From the NCBI RefSeq assembly GCF_031432975.1, contig NZ_CP133838.1, forward strand, positions 558,001 to 622,000: DNA of 64,000 bases, written 5' to 3'. Both the position numbers and the translations under genes were made by a program. Shown piece after piece: positions 45,614 through 46,075 of the stretch (position 1 is the first letter of the stretch; each line of letters starts with the position of its first letter). The notes under the pieces were generated by a model. The model ran no database searches, was not told the DNA's origin, and saw only the letters and a list, made by a program, of their open reading frames with translations. This DNA is from Buttiauxella selenatireducens. Lineage in GTDB: Bacteria; Pseudomonadota; Gammaproteobacteria; Enterobacterales; Enterobacteriaceae.

Positions 45614-45660
45614 AATGTGCTCCTGGGGATGACGTATCACGCGATACACGAAATAAGTAT

Positions 45661-45676
45661 TGCAGGGAATACGCCA
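45661..45676 (-). promoter_or_regulatory. Sigma-54 promoter of patA
   Basis: TGGCGTATTCCCTGCA on the minus strand: the invariant GG and GC are exactly ten bases apart as in TGGCAC-N5-TTGCA. Transcription would begin near 45650, giving a leader of about 37 bases to the TTG start. E. coli patA is also transcribed from a sigma-54 promoter. Confidence 0.85.
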
Positions 45677-45826
45677 CTTCGCTTCCCCTAAACAAAATCA
45701 GGATAAACGCTCAGGCGGAACGCGAGTTGAGCAATATTTACTCACAATTGAACATATTTTGTGGATTTATATGCTGAGGACAGGCTGCTCTGAACAGGGC
45801 GGTTTGCACTCTTTCAGCACCCTGTT

Positions 45827-45843
45827 TGCACTATAAATGTGCA
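45827..45843 (-). promoter_or_regulatory. NtrC-type enhancer site
   Basis: TGCACTATAAATGTGCA, a palindrome with perfect TGCAC / GTGCA halves seven bases apart, matching the NtrC consensus TGCAC-N7-GTGCA. It lies about 150 bases upstream of the sigma-54 promoter, a normal enhancer distance. Confidence 0.75.
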
Positions 45844-46075
45844 TGTTGCCCCAGGGTATGGCATCACTATATCACCTGATGTATCAATGCCGCTTATGGC
45901 TTCGCTGAAACCATAATCGCAACAAATTAATAACGAACTATTAATGCTTTTATGTAAAGAAGAATAAATTAATCCGTTCAGTTTTATTTATCCTATAAGG
46001 TAGACTTCTGTCTGTAGTTATTACTGCTTGCAAAATGGGTCGTAGAAATTAATTTTAAATATTGAGAGTGCGCTT

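Follow-up and report, generated by a model that had tools for sequence, protein, structure and literature searches.

Predicted NtrC/sigma-54 control and a conserved leader stem-loop of patA in Buttiauxella selenatireducens, with a dgcZ-like gene as one of several neighbours

Comparison of the region upstream of patA with its counterparts in related genomes leads us, with good confidence, to read it as NtrC/sigma-54 control of patA joined to a conserved RNA stem in the patA leader, with the divergent dgcZ-like gene as one of several neighbours. Control of patA through NtrC and sigma-54 belongs to known biology, and the promoter here is an unremarkable orthologue of one already described; the new piece of the region is the conserved patA leader hairpin. 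The analysis started from a 64,000-nucleotide stretch of the B. selenatireducens genome (contig NZ_CP133838.1, positions 558,001 to 622,000), here called the window, and coordinates refer to its first letter as position 1. We compared it with two sets of relatives. The near loci are the window plus the best 80 of the 554 relatives found (81 in all), and the distant loci are 29 of 37 listed matches at 67–79% identity, hand-picked for spread. All 95 unique leaders of these 110 loci were aligned from the start codon without a structure filter (alignment A2). On the patA side the features are as follows.

44216–45613, minus strand: patA (ygjG), putrescine aminotransferase, with Pfam domain PF00202 (Aminotran_3) and matching E. 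coli DNA annotated as ygjG
45611–45613, minus strand: TTG start codon of patA, read from the sequence and present in 81/81 near loci
45620–45624, minus strand: Shine-Dalgarno AGGAG of patA, read from the sequence and alignment A2
45634–45647, minus strand: patA leader stem-loop GUAUC-GCGU-GAUAC with a 5-bp stem, from A2 pairing and RNAalifold
45650, minus strand: predicted sigma-54 transcription start of patA, placed 12 nt from the -12 GC
45661–45676, minus strand: sigma-54 promoter TGGCGTATTCCCTGCA, with GG-N10-GC kept in position in 79/81 near loci
45694–45708, minus strand: conserved stretch GTTTATCCTGATTTT immediately preceding the -24 element, from the near-locus alignment
45805–45821, no strand assigned: second, weaker NtrC-type site TGCACTCTTTCAGCACC, a degenerate copy 22 bp from TGCACTATAAATGTGCA
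45827–45843, no strand assigned: NtrC-type 17-bp dyad TGCACTATAAATGTGCA, the predicted enhancer, with an exact pattern conserved in place

The closest named match to this patA by identity, among the matches listed, is that of Buttiauxella sp. A111 (99%). Downstream of patA lies a 327-residue open frame (43141–44124, minus strand) for which Pfam gives no match at E 0.001.

In E. coli, patA is said to be under dual control by NtrC and sigma-S. The patA half of the region was already known, because ygjG has been reported there as a target of NtrC, sigma-54 and sigma-S. A gSELEX study on E. coli RpoN and NtrC (PMC8743547) names neither ygjG nor patA in its main text, and a published E. coli NtrC peak is given as 3217421–3217501 in record version.2. 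The E. coli MG1655 promoter resembles the present one in gene, box position, TTG start and leader hairpin core, and it has an NtrC dyad at a matching distance, at -215. The neighbourhoods differ in that the divergent gene is aer in E. coli, whereas here the dgcZ-like gene takes that place and aer is some 8 kb off. With the shift between record versions that we assume, the E. coli NtrC peak would seem to lie nearer the promoter than that dyad. The arrangement is also like that of glnA-type NtrC/sigma-54 promoters in combining a -24/-12 box with 17-bp dyads farther up. It is unlike glnA in that the glnA dyads are closer to the promoter and those of patA are farther upstream, in tandem at about 21 bp.

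The preliminary description of this DNA had assigned to patA a sigma-54 box with exact GG-N10-GC spacing, a 17-base NtrC-type palindrome about 150 bases upstream and a TTG start, and all three hold. The box TGGCGTATTCCCTGCA reads from 45676 to 45661 on the minus strand, TGCACTATAAATGTGCA lies about 150–165 bases above its -24 element and about 185 bases from the predicted transcription start, and a UUG start is near-invariant, occurring in 108/110 near and distant loci. Measured from the patA start codon, the tandem dyads of the window stand at about -215 to -237. The genome encodes the proteins that such a promoter calls for in profile searches: rpoN scored 530.3 bits with TIGR02395 (cut-off 277.35) and ntrC 815.3 bits with TIGR01818 (cut-off 558.6).

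Scored singly, the sigma-54 box and the second NtrC site of the window are each weak. TGGCGTATTCCCTGCA agrees with the sigma-54 consensus at 8 of 11 letters, and it is absent from a scan allowing two or fewer mismatches because it has three. When the region was shuffled, 349 of 500 sequences equalled or beat a score of 8/11, and the box taken by itself proves nothing. The 5.2-Mb genome contains TGCAC-N7-GTGCA 8 times and the reversed pattern 3 times, so that an exact dyad by chance within 462 bases is unlikely, though this is not decisive. Judged by the alignments, it is conservation of position among relatives, and not the strength of any single site, that establishes the box and the dyad as real. 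With two or fewer mismatches allowed, a dyad lying wholly within -262 to -180 is present in 75/81 near loci, and in 77/81 when its first base is required to fall there. After removal of redundancy the count is 48/52, whereas 300 shuffles gave 3.1 on average and 9 at most. Tandem sites 19–23 bp apart, with five or fewer mismatches in all, were found in 65/81 near loci (mean 0.17 in 30 shuffles). Among the distant loci, 27/29 have the GG-N10-GC box and 19/29 an NtrC dyad. Several positions of the GTTTATCCTGATTTT block, counted as -59 to -48 relative to the hairpin, are identical in 50–51 of 52 loci.

Some loci depart from this arrangement. Two Salmonella subspecies loci (L091 and L098) lack the -24 element and have no NtrC dyad at the usual place, so patA there is probably transcribed from a different promoter; both retain the exact core of the leader hairpin as well as the -12 region. 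The Escherichia albertii record (L104) retains the sigma-54 box and has no NtrC dyad within two mismatches.

Two features belong to the other side of the intergenic region.

45954–45968, plus strand: candidate CpxR-like box GTAAAGAAGAATAAA, one mismatch to the CpxR consensus, 122 bp upstream of dgcZ
46076–46978, plus strand: dgcZ-like CZB-GGDEF diguanylate cyclase gene with a GTG start (PF00990, PF13682)

The encoded protein scored 128.1 bits with PF00990 and stands at the cut-off with PF13682 (29.4 bits). Like E. coli DgcZ (YdeH) it combines CZB and GGDEF domains, carries the GGEEF active-site motif and has aligned His and Cys residues; these align with the zinc-binding residues of the E. coli protein and are candidate ligands here. 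In a one-way comparison it is the protein of this genome that best matches E. coli DgcZ (37–38% identity). It differs from E. coli DgcZ in its genomic place, and at 37% identity "dgcZ" is here a family name and not a proven orthologue.

This gene probably has a promoter of its own, outside NtrC/sigma-54 control. No sequence match to one was found: the search for a sigma-70 promoter of dgcZ gave 0 matches (shuffle mean 1.8), and no sigma-28 match of at least 11/16 letters is present in the window. Could that promoter be driven by envelope stress through CpxR, as reported for E. coli dgcZ? According to the part of PMC13131220 consulted, sites for CpxR and CsrA are present at E. coli dgcZ, which is controlled by both regulators; such control of the present gene would be hypothetical. 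Both L048 and L037 have GTAAAGAAGAATAAA at the corresponding alignment position, which speaks for CpxR control, yet with the window this amounts to 3 of the 13 dgcZ-bearing loci; further boxes with one mismatch, in L109, L111 and L112, are at other places. The window as a whole has 6 CpxR-like boxes against 3.0 expected, a number reached by 8 of 100 shuffles, and the low identity to E. coli DgcZ and the missing sigma-70 match count against CpxR as well. The scan is itself a weak test, because upstream of E. coli dgcZ it yields two-mismatch boxes only. We consider a CpxR-driven dgcZ promoter unlikely, and retain the broader reading of a promoter independent of NtrC.

We now turn to the patA leader. 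In the predicted sigma-54 transcript the stem-loop occupies about +4 to +17 and ends 9 bases ahead of AGGAG, leaving the Shine-Dalgarno unmasked; in alignment A2 the GG of the latter is invariant and GGAG nearly so. GTATC-N4-GATAC is the most conserved element of the leader, exact in 80/81 near loci, and this core is found in E. coli K-12 as well. In distant leaders the letters differ and the pairing stays, with arms such as ATATC/GATAT, GCATC/GATGC, GCATC/GATGT, ACGTC/GATGT and GCACT/GGTGC, among others. Of the 8 distant matches left out of the set, G031 (L018) and G024 (L019) retain a paired stem.

Across the 95 leaders of A2, 98.5% of stem cells are paired. Changes on both sides of a pair occupy 21 cells, one of them from L151, whose hairpin lies elsewhere, as against 2.8 in shuffles. 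The pairing, the number of both-sided cells and the covariation score were each reached by 0 of 500 shuffles, and the number of pairs and the number of pair types each by 36 of 500. Pairing through both-sided changes exceeds both the shuffled and the slid controls. L138 and L151 account for the unpaired cells; in these two, patA starts with ATG, a GG-N10-GC box is missing and the hairpin is a different, shifted one, GGTAAT/ATTACC, right before the Shine-Dalgarno. On a patA tree made with a quick, simpler model and with L138 and L151 left out, one base pair of the stem has changed between U-A and C-G on no fewer than 4 separate occasions. RNAalifold independently predicts the same stem. Judged by one fixed criterion, a 5-bp leader hairpin is present in 108/110 loci, in 3.5% of shuffled leaders and in 66 of 2090 other upstream stretches. 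A second alignment, A1 (70 rows, with the coordinates of row L116 set by hand), was chosen by a script demanding a 5-bp hairpin, so that the 100% pairing seen in it is in part built in by that choice; our conclusions on the hairpin rest on A2. At the level of the aligned leaders, these comparisons show the stem to be conserved as an RNA structure across the Enterobacterales.

The same dyad could instead be a DNA operator for a repressor or activator, in which case no RNA hairpin need be involved. The strong conservation of the core would suit an operator, some versions of the element are fully palindromic, and a dimeric operator would also show both-sided changes. The one-sided changes, by contrast, separate the two readings: in the 93 leaders that remain without L138 and L151, every one of them produces a G-U or U-G pair, a preference for which an operator offers no cause, and RNA is therefore favoured over a DNA operator. 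The variation of stem letters among distant loci and the position of the element within the predicted transcribed leader also argue against an operator, as does the genome count of 2 copies of the core pattern versus 8 of the reversed one. We regard the operator as improbable, somewhat more so than CpxR control of dgcZ, and continue with the RNA stem. As a separate matter, PtrR was considered as a binder of the leader dyad and rejected, since the PtrR sites printed in the consulted part of PMC9068703 bear no resemblance to it.

A search of the genome for further copies of the element with model R1, in which 150 of 1245 first-look candidates were scored, found the patA copy and no other at E values up to 10. 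Rfam gave 0 matches at gathering score in window positions 43000–47500, and its two matches to the leader (E 0.65 and 1.5) are far below the cut-offs. In the part of the literature searched we found no earlier description of a patA leader hairpin.

The preliminary description had further proposed that the enhancer is shared with dgcZ, and that nitrogen starvation might therefore alter dgcZ transcription. The two genes do have one 462-base intergenic region in common; evidence for regulatory sharing is absent, and the link from nitrogen to dgcZ is unsupported. NtrC activates sigma-54 polymerase, yet no GG-N10-GC faces dgcZ on the plus strand between 45614 and 46075, and the dyads persist in loci that lack dgcZ. 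Among the 81 near loci the divergent neighbour of patA is aer in 49, a dgcZ-like gene in 13 and neither in 19, the last class taking in L045 and L104, where remnants of dgcZ and aer, respectively, are left. A dyad with its first base within -262 to -180 is present in 47/49 of the aer loci, 12/13 of the dgcZ loci and 18/19 of the others. In L048 125 extra bases separate the enhancer from dgcZ, and the spacing from enhancer to patA is unchanged. Over 59 loci the enhancer lies 221.6 bases (sd 14.6) from the patA start and 204.2 (sd 38.6) from that of the neighbour, although the tighter spacing to patA is also expected because patA anchored the search. From these comparisons dgcZ looks like a bystander next to an old patA enhancer.

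Several further observations concern the neighbourhood. In Franconibacter helveticus (L053), Enterobacter pulveris (L054) and Siccibacter turicensis (L075), dgcZ stands between patA and aer. In L045 a C-terminal remnant of dgcZ (residues 257–298) lies beside patA, so the gene has apparently been lost there, and in E. albertii (L104) aer is present only as a remnant. The extra DNA of L048, the nearest named relative, is a 125-bp insert about 255–385 bases upstream of patA that is absent from the window and may be an ERIC repeat, which it resembles. The window itself has an aer orthologue at 54116–55636 on the plus strand (72% identical to E. coli Aer), and a peptide-transporter-like cluster, as read from the open reading frames, lies between it and the patA/dgcZ region.

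It could still be argued that the enhancer activates dgcZ as well, through a sigma-54 promoter or indirectly, and that nitrogen starvation would in this way raise c-di-GMP synthesis. The dyad has its first base 249 bases ahead of the start of dgcZ, within the intergenic region that both genes border, and the best consensus match directed towards dgcZ, CAGCACCCTGTTTGCA at 45815–45830, has 9/11 letters. This match, however, is without the GG of a -24 element, overlaps the NtrC sites and has a score matched by 79 of 500 shuffles. In a scan of 500 bases in each of the 13 dgcZ-bearing loci, which did not quite reach dgcZ in L042 and L048, a dgcZ-facing GG-N10-GC box with three or fewer mismatches appeared in one, L109, at a distance of 35 bases from the start of patA; boxes with four mismatches, at or inside the dgcZ start region, occur in L054, L109, L111 and L112. 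Together with the retention of the dyads where dgcZ is missing, this makes activation of dgcZ by the enhancer very unlikely. Still less credible is the idea that the sigma-54 box and the NtrC dyad are chance matches, because the box falling within shuffle range by itself and the genome having 8 exact dyads versus 3 of the control pattern are set against dyads in 48/52 non-redundant loci versus a shuffle mean of 3.1 and against published reports of binding and regulation in E. coli.

What might the leader stem do? Most likely, we infer, it tunes the stability or the translation of patA mRNA. Stem-loops at the 5' terminus, such as that of the ompA leader, stabilise mRNA. The patA stem-loop resembles the ompA leader in lying a few bases from the predicted 5' end and ahead of the Shine-Dalgarno, and differs from it in that its stem is much shorter (5–8 bp). 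Protection of the 5' end from decay would be a simpler idea than polyamine-stimulated translation. For the latter, UUG starts are one documented route in E. coli, with gshA, cya and spoT as examples (PMC4405209); the consulted part of that article, which deals with the polyamine modulon, does not mention patA or ygjG. Like these mRNAs, that of patA, itself a putrescine gene, has an inefficient UUG start, in keeping with the inefficient start codon (UUG or GUG) or displaced Shine-Dalgarno that marks the modulon. Translation stimulated by substrate is attractive because PatA consumes putrescine. That the stem-loop and the near-invariant UUG form a post-transcriptional element, with translation or lifetime of patA mRNA being set by polyamines or by an RNA-binding factor, is a tentative idea that we would sooner doubt than accept.

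Taken together, we propose the following sequence of events. Under nitrogen limitation, phosphorylated NtrC would bind the tandem dyads upstream of patA in this strain and, as reported for E. coli patA, activate sigma-54 polymerase at the -24/-12 box. The resulting transcript would begin almost directly with the stem-loop, followed by the Shine-Dalgarno and the UUG start, and the stem-loop would tune its stability or translation. The dgcZ-like gene would be transcribed from its own promoter, without NtrC or sigma-54.

The nitrogen switch of patA is thus known biology met again in Buttiauxella, and a tempting link between nitrogen starvation and c-di-GMP through dgcZ is removed as unsupported. 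The patA leader hairpin is a small RNA element of deep conservation, located in a classic nitrogen-regulated gene, and because it is also present in E. coli K-12 its role is open to simple reporter fusions. If the tentative polyamine idea is true, nitrogen, through NtrC, would set patA transcription, and the substrate putrescine would set the output of protein.
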